Below are positions 2,325 to 11,100 of a stretch of 52,350 bases of DNA, in pieces. Under the pieces are notes generated by a model, which worked only from the letters and a program-made list of their open reading frames with translations, ran no database searches and was not told the origin of the DNA. Made by a program: the position numbers and the translations under genes. Positions within the stretch are counted from its first letter, which is position 1. Every line of letters starts with the position of its first letter. The DNA comes from Oligoflexales bacterium. GTDB lineage: Bacteria > Bdellovibrionota_B > Oligoflexia > Oligoflexales > RGVZ01. Location of the stretch: positions 1 to 52,350 of the forward strand of contig CANILH010000014.1 of NCBI GenBank assembly GCA_947468665.1, written 5' to 3'.

Positions 2325-2468
2325 ATGCTACTTTTATCACCTAACACCACAATATTACTTGTAGTTTTTTTACTGACGCCTGTGGTAGACAGTTGTCGTG
2401 ATTTTTTGTTAAGAGGTACGGTTCTTGACCAGTTTTCCCGTGGGAGCTTACTTAGGAAAATTCAATGA
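2325..2468 (+). CDS. Possible 47-residue membrane peptide leading the mevalonate operon
   Basis: An ATG at 2325 follows a good ribosome binding site (GGAAGG, 7 bases upstream) and opens 47 codons ending in a TGA that overlaps the mvaA start as ATGA. The same ATGA overlap joins later genes of the operon (4881/4884 and 5957/5960), which argues for a translated, coupled leader gene. The peptide has a hydrophobic stretch (about residues 9-22), one Cys at 24, then a basic amphipathic tail ending LLRKIQ. No family recognised. It could equally be chance, since nothing but the start signal and overlap supports it. Confidence 0.4.
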   Translation: MLLLSPNTTILLVVFLLTPVVDSCRDFLLRGTVLDQFSRGSLLRKIQ

Positions 2469-3763
2469 ATACACCTGATCTCAAACCACTCGCTAATCAT
2501 AAGAACCAGGCACCGACACCTGACCGGGCAGACACGTCCGAGCAGAACATGGACAATCGAGAATTACATATATCGTCAAGAATTCCCGGTTTTTATGAAT
2601 TATCGATTGGCGAGCGACTCGCTGTAGTAAGCAGCGTCGCGGGCCTGACTGACTCCGAGCGATTCCATCTTGGACAGTTTGGATCCCTGAACGGTGAACT
2701 CGCCGATGTATTTATTGAAAACGCCGTCGGAACGTTTTCCCTGCCTTTGGGTGTCGCGACCAATTTTGTGATCAACGGCCGTGATATTTTGGTTCCGATG
2801 GCCGTTGAGGAATCCAGCGTTCTAGCTGCCGCAAGTCACGGAGCGAAATTGGCGCGTGCGGGCGGTGGATTTAAAACGTCGACAACACTCCCGATTATGA
2901 CCGGTCAGGTCCAGCTTTTTCTGACCTCAACTTGCGATTTTGACACCATCCTCAACGCGCGCAAAGACGAGTTGATCGCCTTCGCCAATCGCGGCCAGGA
3001 TAGTCTTTTGGCCCGCGGTGGAGGAGCCCGGGAAATTGACTGGCACTACATCCCCGAGATGCACAGCGTCGTGATCCATATTCACATCGATACGCGCGAA
3101 GCCATGGGAGCCAACATCGTCAACACCATGTGTGAGCGCGTCTCGACACTCATGCCAGGCATCCTGCCGTGTGAGATTGGACTTCGTATCCTGACAAATC
3201 TAACCGAAAAACGCATGGCAAAAGCCGAATGCCTTATTCCCGCCAGTGCCTTTGACTCACCAGACTATAAAGGCACAGATGTCGTTGATCGCATTGAGAA
3301 GGCTTACCTGTTTGCGTATTACGATGTGCATCGCGCCACCACCAACAATAAAGGCATCATGAACGGTATTGACCCTATACTGATCGCGACCGGTAACGAC
3401 TGGCGCGCAATCGAGGCTGGTTGCCACTCGTGGGCGGCCCGCGACGGCAAATATCGTCCACTCGCGACCTGGAGAAAAACACTCCACGGGGACCTTCACG
3501 GATCCCTTGAAGTTCCCATGGCCGTCGGTGTGGTAGGAGGGGTAACCAAACTTCATCCAACCGCGCGGGCAAGTCTCCGCCTGATGGGGAATCCCGATGC
3601 CAGCACACTTGCGCAGACAATTGTCGCAACCGGACTCGCCCAAAACCTCTCAGCTCTCAGGGCACTTGCGTCAGAGGGAATCCAGAGAGGACACATGAGC
3701 CTCCATCAAAAAAACCTGACTCTTTTGCAGCAACACGCGACCAGCCCCCGAAACTCAAACTAA
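2465..3763 (+). CDS. mvaA: Hydroxymethylglutaryl-CoA reductase, class II type
   Basis: The enzyme reduces HMG-CoA to mevalonate, the committed step of the mevalonate route to isopentenyl diphosphate. The 432-residue length, the absence of membrane anchor and the motifs GTFSLPLGVATNFVINGRD, PMAVEESSVLAAASHGAKLAR and NNKGIMNGIDPI match the bacterial class II (soluble) enzymes. The likely catalytic Glu (VEES), Lys (NNKG), Asp (GIDP) and C-terminal His (RGHM) are all visible. A leader of about 30 residues precedes the family core. AGGA lies 7 bases before the ATG. It is first of the recognisable genes in a seven-gene operon with three GHMP kinase-family genes and mqnD/mqnE. Confidence 0.95.
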   Translation: MNTPDLKPLANHKNQAPTPDRADTSEQNMDNRELHISSRIPGFYELSIGERLAVVSSVAGLTDSERFHLGQFGSLNGELADVFIENAVGTFSLPLGVATNFVINGRDILVPMAVEESSVLAAASHGAKLARAGGGFKTSTTLPIMTGQVQLFLTSTCDFDTILNARKDELIAFANRGQDSLLARGGGAREIDWHYIPEMHSVVIHIHIDTREAMGANIVNTMCERVSTLMPGILPCEIGLRILTNLTEKRMAKAECLIPASAFDSPDYKGTDVVDRIEKAYLFAYYDVHRATTNNKGIMNGIDPILIATGNDWRAIEAGCHSWAARDGKYRPLATWRKTLHGDLHGSLEVPMAVGVVGGVTKLHPTARASLRLMGNPDASTLAQTIVATGLAQNLSALRALASEGIQRGHMSLHQKNLTLLQQHATSPRNSN

Positions 3764-3783
3764 AGTCACCACGAGAGAACGCC

Positions 3784-4884
3784 ATGGCAACCCAAAAGCT
3801 GAGACAAGTTGAGGTTTTCATCCCCGGAAAGGTCATGCTTGCCGGAGAATATTCTGTCCTCCGCGGAGGACACGCCCTGGCGGTGGCGCTGTCTTGCGGG
3901 ATGACTGTGAAAATGGAATGGGACCCACAGGCGACTCAATGGGAAATCCACAGCAATCTCTGGACAGAGCCTAAATTCGTGGCTGGCAACCAAACACCGC
4001 AGCTGGACATGTTATGCCGGGCTGTTCAGTTCATGGCCAAACAAACCGGAATGCACGGTGGTAAAGTTACCGTCCAATCGTTAATCGAGATCAAACACGG
4101 TGTCGGCTCATCTTCAGCTTTAAGACTTGGTATTTGCGGAGCTTTCCTGGCGTTAAAAAACGGCCCGGATTTTACCCGCCCCGGAGGAATCAGCCTCGAA
4201 GCGACTCACACCGCATGGCAACTGCAATCAGAAGGTCAAAGCGCCGCGAGTGGTTATGATATTATCTCGCAATTCGCGGGCGGCCTGACTGAGTTCAGTT
4301 TTGAGTATGAAAATAACAAATGGAAACCAAAATGGTTTCGCCATGATCTTGAGGGCCTGAATGACATTGTCCACGTATTTGTCGGCGGCAAGGGCGCCCC
4401 GACGGCTTCGACGATGCAGACCACATCGTCATGGCTGGACGGGGGAAACCGTTTTGAAAAGCTTACCGACATCTCCGAGACACTGATTGACTCGATCAAT
4501 GTCTCGGTCCTGTGGCCAGACAAATCCAATCTGCGAAAACTGACCGGCGCCTGCGGCGCGGCACGGCACCTCTTATCCGGAGGCCCGCACTTTCCGACAG
4601 AGCTCGCCACGGAGTTATCCGGCGTCACAGGACTGGATCAGACCTGGAGCTGGAAAACCACCGGAGCCGGAGGAGAAGACGCGATTATTCTCATAGGAAC
4701 AAGAACCTTCATTCAACCTGCGGCTGAAAAACTCTGGAAGTCGGGATGGCATCGCCTCGATCATCAATTCACCATGACGGGCACTCATATCGTCTCAATG
4801 ACCGATGAAACCGGGAAGTCCATACTTGGTAAGTCTAAGCCCATCATAGATGCAACCCCGAATTCGAGGGAATTTCTTAAATGA
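3784..4884 (+). CDS. Phosphomevalonate kinase (GHMP family)
   Basis: A 366-residue GHMP-fold kinase that should phosphorylate 5-phosphomevalonate to the diphosphate. Motifs in order are the N-terminal VFIPGKVMLAGEYSVLRGG (about residues 11-29), the ATP-binding KHGVGSSSALRLGICGA (about 102-118) and the C-terminal TTGAGGEDAIIL. The GEYSVL form of motif 1 and the GGED form of motif 3 distinguish phosphomevalonate kinase from mevalonate kinase, and the position between HMG-CoA reductase and the decarboxylase agrees. The stop overlaps the next start by four bases (ATGA). The assignment among GHMP members is by motif and context. Confidence 0.88.
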   Translation: MATQKLRQVEVFIPGKVMLAGEYSVLRGGHALAVALSCGMTVKMEWDPQATQWEIHSNLWTEPKFVAGNQTPQLDMLCRAVQFMAKQTGMHGGKVTVQSLIEIKHGVGSSSALRLGICGAFLALKNGPDFTRPGGISLEATHTAWQLQSEGQSAASGYDIISQFAGGLTEFSFEYENNKWKPKWFRHDLEGLNDIVHVFVGGKGAPTASTMQTTSSWLDGGNRFEKLTDISETLIDSINVSVLWPDKSNLRKLTGACGAARHLLSGGPHFPTELATELSGVTGLDQTWSWKTTGAGGEDAIILIGTRTFIQPAAEKLWKSGWHRLDHQFTMTGTHIVSMTDETGKSILGKSKPIIDATPNSREFLK

Positions 4885-5960
4885 CCGACTTGACTGGACC
4901 TACATCAAGATCCTTTAGGGCGGTTGCTCCCAGCAATATCGCGCTTGTAAAATACTGGGGCAAACGAGACGAAGCCACCCAATGGCCCGCCAACGACTCC
5001 CTCTCCATGACGCTTTCCGAAAGCCAGACCATCACCACCGCACGCCGGACGTCAGATGGTTTTGACTCATTTTCAATGTCTGGGCACACACTTCACTCCC
5101 GCGAGGATGCTGACCATAAGATATTCCACCATCTAAACCGCGTTCGCGAATCTTTGAACGTGTCGGGGCGCCTTGAAATCATATCTGAGAATACATTCCC
5201 AACCGGATGCGGCATTGCCAGCAGTGCCAGCGGTTTTGCGGCCCTCACACTGGCCTCAGCCGCGGCACTTACCGGTGAATCGGCATGGGACGCGCTCGCG
5301 ACCCGTGGCGCTACCAGAACAAAACTGGCTGACTGGGCCAGGATGGGAAGCGGCAGCGCCGGACGAAGCCTTTTGGGCGGTTTCTCGCGATGGAACACTG
5401 GAGAACATGCCAACGCCCAGACAATTCGCCAGGAATTCACGCAGGATCATTGGGACCTGGCCGATGTAATCGTCGTATTGTCCAGCCAGGAAAAACACAC
5501 ATCGTCAAGCGAAGCTCACCGCGCCGCGTGGGGCAGCCCGCTTTTTGCCGCGCGCCTCGCTGGAGTTCCCGAAAGAATTAAAATCGTCACTCAGGCCATC
5601 CGCGAGCGCGAGTTACCGTTACTCGGGCGCGAGATCGAGGCAGACGCCATGGAAATGCACGCTGTCGCGATGACCGGCTCACCCGCGATTAATTACTTTA
5701 GTGAGGACACTATTCGTTTTACCGCATGGGTTCGGAAGCAACGTGGCGCAGGCAATTTCCCCGCCTGGTTCACGATCGACGCGGGGCCGAATGTTCACTT
5801 GATATGCCGGCAGAGTGACGCGAGTGACATCGCGACAACGATCCGCAAGGAGTGGAAAAACGCGAAACTGATTATGGACCGTGTTGGATCTGGCCCCACG
5901 ATTGAAATCTCGACACAGTTTAAGTCCGCATGCCATGAGCTAACAGGAGGTTTGTCATGA
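4881..5960 (+). CDS. mvaD: Diphosphomevalonate decarboxylase
   Basis: This enzyme converts mevalonate diphosphate to isopentenyl diphosphate with ATP. The diagnostic N-terminal motif APSNIALVKYWGKRDE is followed by NDSLSMTLS, the ATP loop PTGCGIASSASGFAAL and RMGSGSAGRSLLGGFSRW, all hallmarks of the decarboxylase branch of the GHMP superfamily. The C-terminal part holds FTIDAGPNVHLIC, containing the Asp expected for decarboxylation. The 359-residue length is usual. ATGA overlaps join it to both neighbours, so the three GHMP genes are tightly coupled. Confidence 0.95.
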   Translation: MTDLTGPTSRSFRAVAPSNIALVKYWGKRDEATQWPANDSLSMTLSESQTITTARRTSDGFDSFSMSGHTLHSREDADHKIFHHLNRVRESLNVSGRLEIISENTFPTGCGIASSASGFAALTLASAAALTGESAWDALATRGATRTKLADWARMGSGSAGRSLLGGFSRWNTGEHANAQTIRQEFTQDHWDLADVIVVLSSQEKHTSSSEAHRAAWGSPLFAARLAGVPERIKIVTQAIRERELPLLGREIEADAMEMHAVAMTGSPAINYFSEDTIRFTAWVRKQRGAGNFPAWFTIDAGPNVHLICRQSDASDIATTIRKEWKNAKLIMDRVGSGPTIEISTQFKSACHELTGGLS

Positions 5961-7012
5961 CTGATCTTTTCTGGCAGTCCGAGGACGAACGGACACAACC
6001 CACTGCAAAATCTCCAGAAGAATCGACAGAGAAATCTCTCAGCTTCTCTTTCACCCAACACGGCGGGCGCGCTGGCACACCCATACGCGGTGACGCTAGC
6101 TCACGAGCCGCGGGTAAAGTTATTATGACTGGAGAGCACGCTGTAGTTTACGGTGCGCGTGCTATCGCGATTCCGCTTTTGTCACGAAGCATGAACCTCA
6201 GGATTTACACCGACCGCATAACCACCAGCAACCCCCGGATAAAATTCCAGATCGGTGGCAAACCTGTTCAGGAGCCACTTCTTGAGATGATCCACGAGGC
6301 GTTTGACGTACTCGCAATCCCAAAATTCAATATTTCCATCGATGGACATAGTACTCTGATGCTGGGCGCCGGCGTTGGATCCTCGGCTAGCCTCTGCGTG
6401 AGCGTCCTGCGCGGACTGTCGCAGGTTTGCGGCATCTCACTGACTCCCGCGAGACTCGCGGACCTCGCCAATAAACTCGAACGCCGATTCCACGGTAATC
6501 CATCGGGACTTGACACCTCGGTAGTGTCGCTTGAACAGGCGATTTTGTTTGAGCGAGGCCGTGACGCGGAGGCTATCACGGTCAATAAACCAAAGGGGTC
6601 AAATCTCCCCTGGTGCTTCGCTCTCCTCGACACAGCGGTTCGTTCTCCGACCATTCACATGGTTCGTAAGGCAGAACCCTGGTTCAAAGCCGAGGGACCA
6701 GCGATTATCGAGCGTTTCAATGACATCACATCTGACGCCGCCCGGGCGTTACGCGATGGCGACACCTCGCTTATGGCGACAGCTATGAGCAGCGGCAACG
6801 AGCTTCTCGCGCGAGCGGGTGTTGTGACTGAGCCAGTCACCAAAATGATTGATAAGGCCTTGGCAAGCGGCGCTCTTGCGGCGAAAGTCACAGGTGCTGG
6901 TGGTGGTGGCTGCGTCTTAGCATTATTCGCCGCAAGCAAGTGCGACCACTCGATCGCTCGTCTCCGTGCCGATGTCGGCAGTGACCGTATTCTTCCAATT
7001 TTTATTCCGTGA
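5957..7012 (+). CDS. mvk: Mevalonate kinase
   Basis: The protein phosphorylates mevalonate to 5-phosphomevalonate. GHMP motifs are complete: GKVIMTGEHAVVYGARAIAIPL (motif 1, where GEHAVVYG is typical of mevalonate kinase), LGAGVGSSASLCVSVLRGL (ATP loop), GNPSGLDTSV, and KVTGAGGGGCVLAL (motif 3). The first 45 residues or so are a polar leader not usual in the family, and the downstream ATGs of the leader could be alternative starts. GGAGG lies just upstream of the chosen ATG. With its neighbours this completes mevalonate to IPP; an IPP isomerase gene is not in the window. Confidence 0.94.
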   Translation: MTDLFWQSEDERTQPTAKSPEESTEKSLSFSFTQHGGRAGTPIRGDASSRAAGKVIMTGEHAVVYGARAIAIPLLSRSMNLRIYTDRITTSNPRIKFQIGGKPVQEPLLEMIHEAFDVLAIPKFNISIDGHSTLMLGAGVGSSASLCVSVLRGLSQVCGISLTPARLADLANKLERRFHGNPSGLDTSVVSLEQAILFERGRDAEAITVNKPKGSNLPWCFALLDTAVRSPTIHMVRKAEPWFKAEGPAIIERFNDITSDAARALRDGDTSLMATAMSSGNELLARAGVVTEPVTKMIDKALASGALAAKVTGAGGGGCVLALFAASKCDHSIARLRADVGSDRILPIFIP

Positions 7013-7018
7013 GGCGCC

Positions 7019-7879
7019 ATGTCAGCCCAGAAGCAAAAAATATCACTAGCCTACAGTCCCGATACGGACGACGCGTTTATGGTTTTAGCCCTGCGGGAGA
7101 AGCGCGTTGATTGGGAGGACTTCGAGTTCACCTTCACAGTCGGTGACATCCAGGAGCTTAATCATGCTGCGTGCAAGTCAATCTACGACATCACCGCGAT
7201 CAGCGTCGGCGCGTATCCCGGAATTCGCGATCAGTATTTGATGATGCCGGTTGGCGCTAGTATCGGTGATGAGTTCGGACCGGCGGTCGTCACCAGCCCA
7301 GGTAGCGTACTTGAAATTGACGACCTCCGCGGTAAACGTGTCGCTGTGCCAGGACTTAACACCTCCGCTCACATCGCGGCTCAGACCCTGTTCGGACCAT
7401 TTACGGCCGTGCCGATGTATTTTATGATGATCCGGGACGCCGTCATGAATGGTGACGTTGACGCGGGGATTTTAATCCATGAGCTGCAACTCAACCCTGA
7501 GTCGGCGGGACTTCGCAAAATCACGGACCTTGGACGCCTTTGGCACGACCGCTTCCAACTTCCCCTGCCCCTTGGAGCGAATGCAGTCAAAAGGGACCTG
7601 GGAGCTGAGACGATTGACCGCCTATCCAGAATTTACCGACGGAGCGTGGAATTCGGCCTTGCGAACCGCACCGAGACCATTTCGCGGGCTGTGAGCCTCG
7701 CGGCCGCAAAAGACACTATGGACGACACCCAGGGAGACCGTTACATTTCTATGTATGTGAATCACCGCAGTCTTGAGTTTCAATCGGATGTGCTTTTGGG
7801 CATCCGGACACTTTTTGAGCAGGGCGCTAAAAATGGTTTATTTGAGCCAATCGATATAACTGGGCACTTGAGCAGCTGA
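7019..7879 (+). CDS. mqnD: 1,4-dihydroxy-6-naphthoate synthase, futalosine menaquinone pathway
   Basis: MqnD converts cyclic de-hypoxanthine futalosine to 1,4-dihydroxy-6-naphthoate. The fold is that of a periplasmic-binding protein but without signal peptide. Family motifs are visible: the N-terminal SPDTDDAFMVLAL (in place of the more common SPCPNDTF), YDITAISVGAYPGIRDQYLMM, VGASIGDEFGPAVV, GILIHELQL and LPLPLGANAVKRDLG. The sister enzyme MqnA is less likely because the MqnA motif around SYLNTLPL is absent. The ATG lies 6 bases after the mevalonate kinase stop, with GAGG overlapping the gap, so it is co-transcribed with the mevalonate genes. Confidence 0.88.
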   Translation: MSAQKQKISLAYSPDTDDAFMVLALREKRVDWEDFEFTFTVGDIQELNHAACKSIYDITAISVGAYPGIRDQYLMMPVGASIGDEFGPAVVTSPGSVLEIDDLRGKRVAVPGLNTSAHIAAQTLFGPFTAVPMYFMMIRDAVMNGDVDAGILIHELQLNPESAGLRKITDLGRLWHDRFQLPLPLGANAVKRDLGAETIDRLSRIYRRSVEFGLANRTETISRAVSLAAAKDTMDDTQGDRYISMYVNHRSLEFQSDVLLGIRTLFEQGAKNGLFEPIDITGHLSS

Positions 7880-7898: not shown

Positions 7899-10085
7899 AT
7901 GATGATGCGTGACATTACCCTGAAAATTGAGCAAGGAACCAGGATTAACGAGACCGAGGCGCTCTGGCTTTATGAGCACGCGGAACTCTCTGAGCTTGGA
8001 GGTCTTGCCAACCGGATTAACCTGCGCAAAAATGGCACCGCCGTATTCTACAACATCAATCGCCACATCAACCCTACCAACATTTGTTCCTTGTCATGTA
8101 AGTTCTGCGCCTACAGCAAAAAAATCGGCGAAGAAGGCGGCTACGCCTACGAAATCGATGAGATGATCACCAAAGCCGGCGAAGCTGTCGCTCAGGGAGC
8201 AACCGAAATTCATATGGTCGGCGGGCTTCACCCAAGATGGAACTTTCAGCGTTATGTGGACATGATCAAAGCCATGCATGATGCTTTCCCTGACGTTCAC
8301 CTTAAGGCCTTTACGGCCGTAGAGCTTGACTGGATGGCCCGCAAGGCAAGAAAAACAATTACCGAGGTCATGGTGGAGCTTCGCGACGCTGGACTGGGCT
8401 CCTTCCCGGGAGGGGGCGCCGAGATATTTCATCCGGAGATCCGCGACCAGATCTGTGACACAAAAGTCTCTGGCGAACAGTGGATTGACACTCACCGCAC
8501 AGCTCATAAACTCGGGATCCGCAGTAATTGCACGATGCTTTATGGCCACATTGAAAGCTATACGCACCGTGTGGACCACATGCGCAGGCTTCGGGAGCTT
8601 CAAGACGAGACTGGCGGATTCAATGTGTTCATTCCCCTGGCATTCCAACCGTTCCAAAACGAGATGGGAATCAACCGCTATACATTCGGCGCCGACGATC
8701 TCCGCACAATCGCGGTTGCGAGACTTTACCTTGATAACTTCAAGCACATCAAAAGCTACTGGGTCATGCTTGGCCAGGACATCGCGCAGCTAGCGCTGCA
8801 ATTTGGCGCCAATGATCTTGACGGCACAGTGCTTGAGGAGAAAATTTCCCGGGCTGCTGGCGGTCGCGCTGGTATGATTATGACCAGAGGTAATCTGGAG
8901 AATTTGATCCTCCGAAGCGGTCGCACACCAGTTGAGCGTACAACGCTCTATAATCCAGTTCGGGCCGGTGATCTTGTTCATTTGACACCGGTCAATGACG
9001 AGTACCTGGCCGCCGGAATGACCGATGTACCTAAAGATATGCTCCGCTCACTCAAAGATGGCGAGACGATGTCACCATCGAATCTCTGGAAGGTGGCTGT
9101 CACCGCGCCGTTGCACGCTATCTCTGAGTCTCTCCGCGCCTCTGGAAAAACCAACAACACAGGGCCCTCATTGACCGAGTCTGTCGCGATAAGTATCGAT
9201 AAGACGACACGGGCTGAGGCTCTCACCCATGACATCCGCCACCTGCTAAGCGGTCTCGAAAGCCGATCCATCACAGCTCCCGCGCACGCCGCGGCGATTA
9301 TTCTTGATACCTCCGACAGCGCCCACGCGGGCTCACAATTGCACCTTCCGGCGATGATTGCTGCCACAAAACTCGCGTCACCCGGATCGTCAATCATATT
9401 GCGCGGCGTCACAGCGGCAATCATGGCTGCCGAGTCGTCCGGAGAGAAGCCAACCGCGTATTTCGCGAATCTCAGGATGCTTGGCCTCGATGTTCTTGAG
9501 GAATCAGTGTCCGACAACGCACTGGCGACCGACGCTAAATGGCTGATATTCACATGCGCCCAGGCGGCGGAAATCGCAATCATACCGTTAATCACACTTA
9601 AGACCCTCGCCAACGCGCCGGACTGGTCGTCTTGGGCGGATGACGTGACTGAGATGCGCGGTCGTTTGACAACGACAGGACTTATCTTCGCTGTCGCCCT
9701 AGGCGTGACGCAAAACTCCCTCATTATGCCAAGCGAATTCATGAAAGCCATAGGCTTGACAAGGCTCGCTCTGCCGTTACCCACCCAGATATGGACGCCA
9801 GCCCACACCATGCCTGTACTTTCACCGCAGCGCGGATTAGGGGCGGACTCCGATCAACATCCGGTCATGAAACTCATTTCAGCGCTCAAGACGTTCGGAA
9901 GCTCGGGAATCGGCTTTGTCGCGGCTGGAGAGTTCAGCGCGGAGCGCGCATGGGAGGACTTACGTGCCTCCGGCACCCTTCCGCAGGTGACCTGCCCACG
10001 CCAGAACAAACTAGACCTCGCAGAAAAATTCGCGGCTCGTCTGAGTGACCTGCGTCACGTCCCGGCACCTTTGGCCGGAGGTTGA
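7899..10085 (+). CDS. mqnE: Aminofutalosine synthase (radical SAM) with a 370-residue C-terminal extension
   Basis: Residues 1-358 are a complete MqnE. They include the radical SAM cluster C63-x3-C67-x2-C70, EIHMVGGLHPRW, LGSFPGGGAEIF, GIRSNCTMLYGHIES and an ending RTPVERTTLYNPVR where normal MqnE proteins stop. MqnE joins the chorismate-derived enolpyruvyl benzoate to the S-adenosylmethionine adenosyl group, giving aminofutalosine. Residues 359-728 form an Ala-rich, alternating alpha/beta-looking region with no Cys cluster and no family I recognise. No stop or frameshift separates the parts. GAGGGAG lies upstream of the first of three in-frame ATGs. The gene is 19 bases after mqnD. mqnA, mqnC and a futalosine hydrolase are not in the window. 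Confidence 0.87.
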   Translation: MMMRDITLKIEQGTRINETEALWLYEHAELSELGGLANRINLRKNGTAVFYNINRHINPTNICSLSCKFCAYSKKIGEEGGYAYEIDEMITKAGEAVAQGATEIHMVGGLHPRWNFQRYVDMIKAMHDAFPDVHLKAFTAVELDWMARKARKTITEVMVELRDAGLGSFPGGGAEIFHPEIRDQICDTKVSGEQWIDTHRTAHKLGIRSNCTMLYGHIESYTHRVDHMRRLRELQDETGGFNVFIPLAFQPFQNEMGINRYTFGADDLRTIAVARLYLDNFKHIKSYWVMLGQDIAQLALQFGANDLDGTVLEEKISRAAGGRAGMIMTRGNLENLILRSGRTPVERTTLYNPVRAGDLVHLTPVNDEYLAAGMTDVPKDMLRSLKDGETMSPSNLWKVAVTAPLHAISESLRASGKTNNTGPSLTESVAISIDKTTRAEALTHDIRHLLSGLESRSITAPAHAAAIILDTSDSAHAGSQLHLPAMIAATKLASPGSSIILRGVTAAIMAAESSGEKPTAYFANLRMLGLDVLEESVSDNALATDAKWLIFTCAQAAEIAIIPLITLKTLANAPDWSSWADDVTEMRGRLTTTGLIFAVALGVTQNSLIMPSEFMKAIGLTRLALPLPTQIWTPAHTMPVLSPQRGLGADSDQHPVMKLISALKTFGSSGIGFVAAGEFSAERAWEDLRASGTLPQVTCPRQNKLDLAEKFAARLSDLRHVPAPLAGG

Positions 10086-10479: not shown

Positions 10480-11100
10480 ATGAAACTGCTCATTGATCTT
10501 CTCCACTTTATCCAGCCATACGGATCGTATAGCTATGGGGTTATATTGGCCGTGCTTCTCGCCTGCGGTTTTGGCCTGCCACTTCCTGAGGATGTCACAT
10601 TGGTGGCTGGCGGAATTCTGGCATCGCGCGATATTATAGATTTCAAATTTACAGTCGCCGTTTGCATGGTCGGCGTTTTGGCCGGGGACGGGACTATTTT
10701 TTTTCTCGGCAGCCGCTATGGAAAGCGTCTCAGGAGGGCTAAGTTTTTTAGTCTGGTCTTACCCGAGAAAAGAGACGCTGCAGTAAAATCCATCTTCGAT
10801 AAATACGGCGACAAAGTAATCTTTATGGCGCGCTTTATGCCAGGTCTGCGCACGCCGTTATTTTTTGCGACAGGAAGCTATCATGTGCCGTTCTGGAAGT
10901 TTTTCATGCTGGATGGATTGGCTGCGCTGATCTCCGTCCCGCTTTGGGTCTACGTTGGATATCTCTTTGGCGCGAACCTTGAGGAGCTTGAACGGGTCAT
11001 GCGCCACGCCCAGGCTGGAATATTTTTAGGCCTCGGCCTAATAACCGTGTTTTTTGTCGGTGTTTATTTTTTGAAGAAGCGCCTTCTCCGCGTGGAGTGA
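10480..11100 (+). CDS. DedA-family membrane protein (VTT domain)
   Basis: DedA proteins are inner-membrane proteins of the VTT/SNARE-associated superfamily; several members move undecaprenyl phosphate or phospholipids across the membrane. The 206-residue sequence shows the family motifs PLPEDVTLVAGG near the N-terminus, GDGTIFFLGSRYGKRL and the signature FMARFMPGLRTPLFFATG with the conserved Arg residues, plus four to five hydrophobic segments. AGGA precedes the ATG. Substrate cannot be read from the sequence. Confidence 0.92.
   Translation: MKLLIDLLHFIQPYGSYSYGVILAVLLACGFGLPLPEDVTLVAGGILASRDIIDFKFTVAVCMVGVLAGDGTIFFLGSRYGKRLRRAKFFSLVLPEKRDAAVKSIFDKYGDKVIFMARFMPGLRTPLFFATGSYHVPFWKFFMLDGLAALISVPLWVYVGYLFGANLEELERVMRHAQAGIFLGLGLITVFFVGVYFLKKRLLRVE

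Follow-up and report, generated by a model that had tools for sequence, protein, structure and literature searches.

The window (the whole stretch of 52,350 nucleotides from an Oligoflexales bacterium analyzed here) encodes an aminofutalosine synthase (MqnE), an enzyme of vitamin K2 synthesis, that continues in frame into a long C-terminal extension. With moderate confidence, we regard this extension as a retained pseudoenzyme domain, that is, a gene of the mqnC/mqnE family that would have been fused in frame to mqnE and kept as a non-catalytic partner. The extension has lost the iron-sulfur site and yet was kept across the order; two genera retain it although the active half and the pathway are gone, which makes a non-catalytic job probable.

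The gene (positions 7899–10085, forward strand) forms a single 728-codon frame with an ATG start and zero internal stops. The MqnE half ends with the motif VERTTLYNPVR, whose last residue is Arg-355, and the in-frame extension starts at residue 356 (Table 1). Independent genomes from the genus, the family, and the order carry the same fused frame, which is therefore not an artefact of a single assembly. The NCBIfam model for MqnE (TIGR03700) covers residues 8–354 with 491.3 bits (cut-off 434.55), and the Pfam families Radical_SAM and CofH_C both score above cut-off in this half. The full-length model matches the MqnE structure 6XIG (42% identity, E 5e-29). By sequence, the MqnE half is predicted to be complete for catalysis.

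Table 1. Positions of the fused gene's domains and motifs and of its neighbors in the window
Feature	Position	Strand	Basis or remark
Mevalonate genes upstream: HMG-CoA reductase, GHMP kinase, diphosphomevalonate decarboxylase, second GHMP kinase (mevalonate-kinase-like)	2465..7012	+	
mqnD (1,4-dihydroxy-6-naphthoate synthase), directly upstream of mqnE	7019..7879	+	PF02621 193 bits; PDB 2czl
MqnE (aminofutalosine synthase) domain, residues 1–355	7899..8963	+	TIGR03700; Pfam Radical_SAM and CofH_C; model vs 6XIG
CxxxCxxC [4Fe-4S] motif of the MqnE domain (C63, C67, C70)	8085..8108	+	Invariant in the full-length alignment
C-terminal extension, residues 356–728 (373 aa), predicted Cys-less radical-SAM-type barrel, MqnC/MqnE-like	8964..10082	+	hhalign, AF2, Foldseek
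SEFMKAIGLTR (consensus SEYLxAVALTRL), best-conserved segment of the extension	9732..9764	+	E613, A617, R622 invariant; matches MqnC EYLRVLAVSR
New conserved loop PVLSPQRGLGADSDQHPVMK	9813..9872	+	No counterpart in MqnE/MqnC; K658 invariant
LRHVP, C-terminal motif of the extension	10050..10064	+	H720, P722 almost invariant
DedA/VTT-domain membrane protein, conserved downstream neighbor	10480..11100	+	Similar neighbor, by eye, in many fused loci

The sequence-only reading had pointed to an in-frame region of 370 residues behind the VERxTLYNPxR motif at residue 355, which we confirm with a length of 373 residues, and had described it as not obviously any known menaquinone enzyme. The description is correct for the sequence alone: the extension by itself returned nothing above chance or cut-off in Pfam, NCBIfam, or PDB sequences, and a search of the PDB sequences with the extension profile gave chance matches only. 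It does not hold once relatives are used, which point to an MqnC/MqnE-type domain. By hhalign, a profile of 21 extensions gave a collinear alignment, spanning the entire domain, to the MqnE half of these proteins (probability 98.2, E 5.5e-14) and also matched a profile of 25 MqnC sequences, nearly all from loci above NCBI's MqnC cut-off (probability 99.5, E 4.5e-22). Structure prediction followed by a fold search, as that reading had proposed, yielded a radical-SAM barrel. The AlphaFold (AF2) model of the window's extension, built from 18 sequences (pLDDT 83.9, pTM 0.84), has as its top PDB match in Foldseek the MqnE of Pedobacter heparinus (6XIG; E 2.7e-10, TM 0.67, 9% identity across the structural alignment), followed by HydG, ThiH, PylB, and biotin synthase, all of which are radical-SAM barrels.

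CofH_C (PF19288) is not matched by the window's extension alone, and the extension of one relative (L007) reaches 33 bits, above the cut-off of 27; 7 of 18 members match at E ≤ 1. For the MqnC family TIGR03699 (cut-off 428 bits), the best of the 18 relatives stays far below the cut-off, and the window's extension gives no match. The agreement between hhalign, AlphaFold/Foldseek, and CofH_C in a relative identifies the extension as a predicted second, full-length radical-SAM-type barrel of the MqnC/MqnE/CofH type. A likeness to anthranilate phosphoribosyltransferase (TrpD), guessed by eye, was discarded, as there is no such Pfam match and the model matches MqnE.

The active site of MqnE and MqnC is carried by the GG, PGGGAE, FQxxN, and EE(N/K) loops. 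In the alignment, the GG strand, the PGGGAE loop, the FQxxN loop, and the EE(N/K) segment after GAND are absent from the extension, and the CX3CX2C motif is absent from every extension aligned. We infer that the extension does not perform radical-SAM catalysis. What it has kept are the N-terminal helices and the C-terminal half (EYLxAVALTRL, FGAxDLG); invariant residues are few and mostly occupy shared scaffold positions. What it has gained is a conserved loop of ∼20 residues between the last conserved strands (consensus PTLSPxxGLGxxxxQHPxxK). In a shortened version of the extension (G011), the stretch that is still recognizable consists of this new loop and its neighbors (profile positions 249–313).

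As to its parent, the extension quite likely derives from MqnC. Nine of 18 extensions match the NCBIfam model for MqnC (best E 2.5e-10), and four match that for MqnE (best E 0.0019). Of the 20 extensions matched by both our MqnC and our MqnE profile, 17 score better with MqnC, and at 29 columns diagnostic for MqnC versus MqnE, the 11 better-preserved extensions agree 52 times with MqnC and 19 times with MqnE. The sister order has a canonical mqnC immediately after mqnE, in the position that the extension takes up here, and the genes matched there by the extension profile are canonical MqnC genes. The phylogenetic tree, in which the extension forms a long branch, allows both groupings (AU p 0.51 with MqnC, 0.65 with MqnE), and the tree constrained to MqnE reached a likelihood 8.3 log units above the free search. 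This result, one invariant histidine of the extension (H..AH) that agrees with MqnE, and the top PDB match would fit a tandem duplication of MqnE itself as the source of the same pseudoenzyme. We consider this origin rather unlikely, as the NCBIfam models, our own profiles, the diagnostic columns, and the best outside matches all favor MqnC, and mqnC is what follows mqnE in the sister order; the PDB match may mean little, because no MqnC is among the 50 matches listed.

The extension profile has matches in 28 of 43 genomes of the order (Oligoflexales-type). In 24 of these the domain is fused to MqnE, in G011 the last segment of the tail alone matches, and in the remaining three (G014, G025, and G040) the domain is fused and both halves are Cys-less. 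With the extension as query, MqnE-fused homologues were found in all members of the genus and family examined as well as in many genomes across the order, with identities of 42–52% inside the genus, except for its most distant member, and of 23–30% in the best segments elsewhere. The named relatives are lake metagenome genomes labeled Oligoflexales, Pseudobacteriovorax, or Proteobacteria. Across the 383 genomes searched, full-length matches are limited to the order. Outside the phylum, seven genomes gave matches of about 28–34 bits, and the five that were checked are all canonical MqnC; the viral contigs searched contained no relatives.

Within the order, the tail is cut to about 110–170 residues in G011 and G019, and the remnant is unrecognizable in G012 and G020. 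Several families (f3 and f4) have a short extension or none that could be detected, and it is therefore dispensable in places; in f3, where the tail measures about 110–170 residues, the other Mqn genes are still present. The extension is absent from the f11 genomes with an unfused MqnE. These unfused genes (L076, L077, and L078, from G022, G028, and G037) have a different gene neighborhood, and the MqnE of G028 and G037 forms a clearly separate lineage in the tree, suggestive of a replacement through gene transfer.

In four close pairs, dN/dS is 0.09–0.17 for the extension and 0.02–0.08 for MqnE, with one pair (L002/L003) near saturation at a dS of 1.6. Relative to dS, the extension changes about 2–6 times faster than MqnE. 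The extension is under purifying selection, which is weaker than that on MqnE. The faster evolution, the short or unrecognizable tails, and the absence of the domain beside the unfused f11 MqnE are what would be expected of a decaying relic. Such a dead domain would have hardly any function or none, would be tolerated because it still folds, and would be constrained solely to keep the fused MqnE from misfolding. Against this stand the low dN/dS values and the frames, which are intact throughout, and above all two genera in which the MqnE half itself is dead.

These two genera (G014 and G025, family f6) encode intact orthologues of the fused protein, of 589 and 608 residues, in which neither half has the cysteine motif. 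Between them, the MqnE halves share 21.5% identity and the extension halves 31.0%, whereas the values for two ordinary fused members are 63% and 32%. The best-domain profile scores are 131–136 bits for the extension halves and 18–31 bits for the MqnE halves. Identities and scores together indicate that the extension held its usual constraint while MqnE lost its own. Protection of MqnE folding cannot explain this pattern, and we regard the decaying relic as unlikely.

Both genomes have MenB above cut-off, and no MqnA/D or MqnC was found in them. In f6 as a whole, MenB exceeds the family cut-off in the six genomes with a full-length gene, and there are no PF02621 matches, no true MqnE, and no true MqnC. 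Since MenB is present and the futalosine genes are missing, f6 presumably makes its quinone by the Men pathway. A cultivated species of the order, Oligoflexus tunisiensis, has MK-7 as its sole quinone (PMC4179278). The orthologues in G014 and G025 are flanked by a DnaQ-like exonuclease gene (named by eye) and an Aat-type gene; such an exonuclease gene, again by eye, also lies near the gene of G040, and Aat also lies near the window's gene. The f11 genome G040 (84% complete) carries another fused gene with two radical-SAM halves that lack the cysteine motif (L079, 2375–4546, reverse strand), with mevalonate genes upstream; genes of the MqnA/D type and an MqnB-like gene remain in this genome, and no separate MqnE or MqnC was found. 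From the f6 genomes, a further role of the extension beyond MqnE catalysis seems likely enough to consider. It is conceivable, if somewhat doubtful, that the Cys-less domain gained an autonomous non-catalytic function independent of menaquinone synthesis by MqnE and was kept together with the dead MqnE half, as a cluster-less two-domain protein, after the futalosine pathway was lost.

The sequence-only reading had offered two explanations for the extension, a degenerate duplicate and a missing pathway step. The first is supported, as the extension is a degenerate domain with the same radical-SAM fold, for which MqnC is a more likely source than MqnE. By the second, the extension would supply the step between MqnE and MqnC as an aminofutalosine deaminase or futalosine hydrolase. 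Indeed, the standard MqnB model (TIGR03664) scores above cut-off in 0 of the 56 genomes of the phylum searched, and the window's own genome shows none. However, the predicted fold is neither that of a nucleosidase nor that of a deaminase but a radical-SAM barrel whose few invariant residues are mainly shared scaffold, and in Pfam the extension does not match the PNP_UDP_1 (futalosine hydrolase) family. Moreover, the search for an mqnB-like gene elsewhere in the genome retrieved a divergent one (L211, G000:C1:80010-80576) in addition to the two PNP-family genes, which are an MTA phosphorylase and a purine nucleoside phosphorylase.

L211 belongs to a divergent family of futalosine-hydrolase-like nucleosidases, together with L197 and L199, that the standard models nearly miss (L197: PF01048, E 0.05; TIGR03664, E 2.2e-6). 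The family tracks the futalosine pathway, as it occurs in almost all genomes of the order with this pathway and in none of f5 and f6, and in G026 and G037 its gene adjoins a PF02621 (mqnA/D-type) gene. From the weak matches and this distribution, we assign a putative MqnB function to it. The genome further encodes MqnA (L069, on G000:C3) and a separate, divergent MqnC with an intact cysteine motif (on G000:C2; locus L066, positions 891–2096 of the locus). The mqnD product upstream of mqnE matches the menaquinone biosynthetic enzyme TTHA1568 in the PDB (2czl, E 9e-34) and chorismate dehydratases only at about 1e-4. With separate MqnA, MqnC, and MqnD and the divergent MqnB in the genome, no pathway step is missing, and a role of the extension in this step is very improbable.

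The separate MqnC scores 304 bits with TIGR03699, which is below the cut-off and yet its best family match. It belongs to a clade (with L101–L120) that occurs through most of the order at about 265–316 bits, likewise below the cut-off, and that has the SPGKFTVEDYY motif and lacks the GANDMGS motif; this clade may merit a family model of its own. The matches of G054 to TIGR03699 were not counted as Mqn proteins, as by eye they look like two HydE/HydG-type proteins.

For the pseudoenzyme, we propose the following history. In the ancestor of the order, a gene of the MqnC/MqnE family, most likely the mqnC behind mqnE, would have been joined in frame to mqnE. Both the cysteines for the iron-sulfur cluster and the loops of the active site would then have disappeared from the fused copy, which would have retained the barrel scaffold and added the new conserved loop. 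Cyclization, the MqnC step, is now presumably carried out by the separate, divergent MqnC. The dead domain most likely packs on the MqnE barrel, either as an intramolecular pseudo-dimer or as a docking or regulatory module. Such packing would stabilize MqnE or recruit partner enzymes, with the new loop as the likely contact. A defined packing of the two domains would be consistent with the two-domain full-length model, judged by a single number, its pTM of 0.83.

The mevalonate cluster directly upstream of mqnD-mqnE could couple the supply of the quinone head with that of the isoprenoid tail. In G012, MqnD and MqnE share one open frame of 822 residues with a short remnant tail (L072, 3410–5875, reverse strand), and the order seems prone to fusions in this operon.

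Because the radical-SAM family is recognized by its cluster motif, dead members are easily missed in annotation. Here, the steps can be traced from adjacent genes in the sister order to the fusion, the loss of one cluster, and the loss of both with the protein kept. Should the domain act as a functional partner, MqnE of this lineage would possess a non-catalytic module for control or scaffolding; in other bacteria, the pathway of this enzyme is under study as an antibacterial target. The natural deletions and double-dead versions in the order lend themselves to testing the role of the extension.

Enzyme–pseudoenzyme pairs, in which a dead paralogue is kept as the partner of the live one, and their fusions as such are already known. 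A limited literature search, poor in subscription papers, revealed neither such a pair in the radical-SAM superfamily nor a Cys-less MqnC/MqnE-type domain fused to MqnE. The closest known system is MqnC, the cyclic dehypoxanthinyl futalosine synthase (TIGR03699; PF19288), which is collinear with the extension over its full length, is its best profile family, and is encoded behind mqnE in the sister order. In contrast to MqnC, the extension lacks CX3CX2C and the GG and PGGGAE loops, scores far below the family cut-off, possesses the GLGxxxxQHPxxK loop, and is fused to MqnE. MqnE (TIGR03700; PDB codes 6XIG and 6XI9) is represented by the N-terminal half, a true MqnE by profile, and is also the best structural match of the extension, which differs from it by the absence of the cluster motif and the active-site loops. 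The bifunctional FO synthase CofG-CofH (NF006687), also named FbiC, likewise joins a pair of homologous radical-SAM barrels in a single polypeptide, and one of the pair belongs to the CofH family. Whereas both halves of CofG-CofH are active enzymes, one half of the MqnE fusion has no cluster motif, and in this dead domain retained beside a live MqnE the fusion resembles the enzyme–pseudoenzyme pairs.
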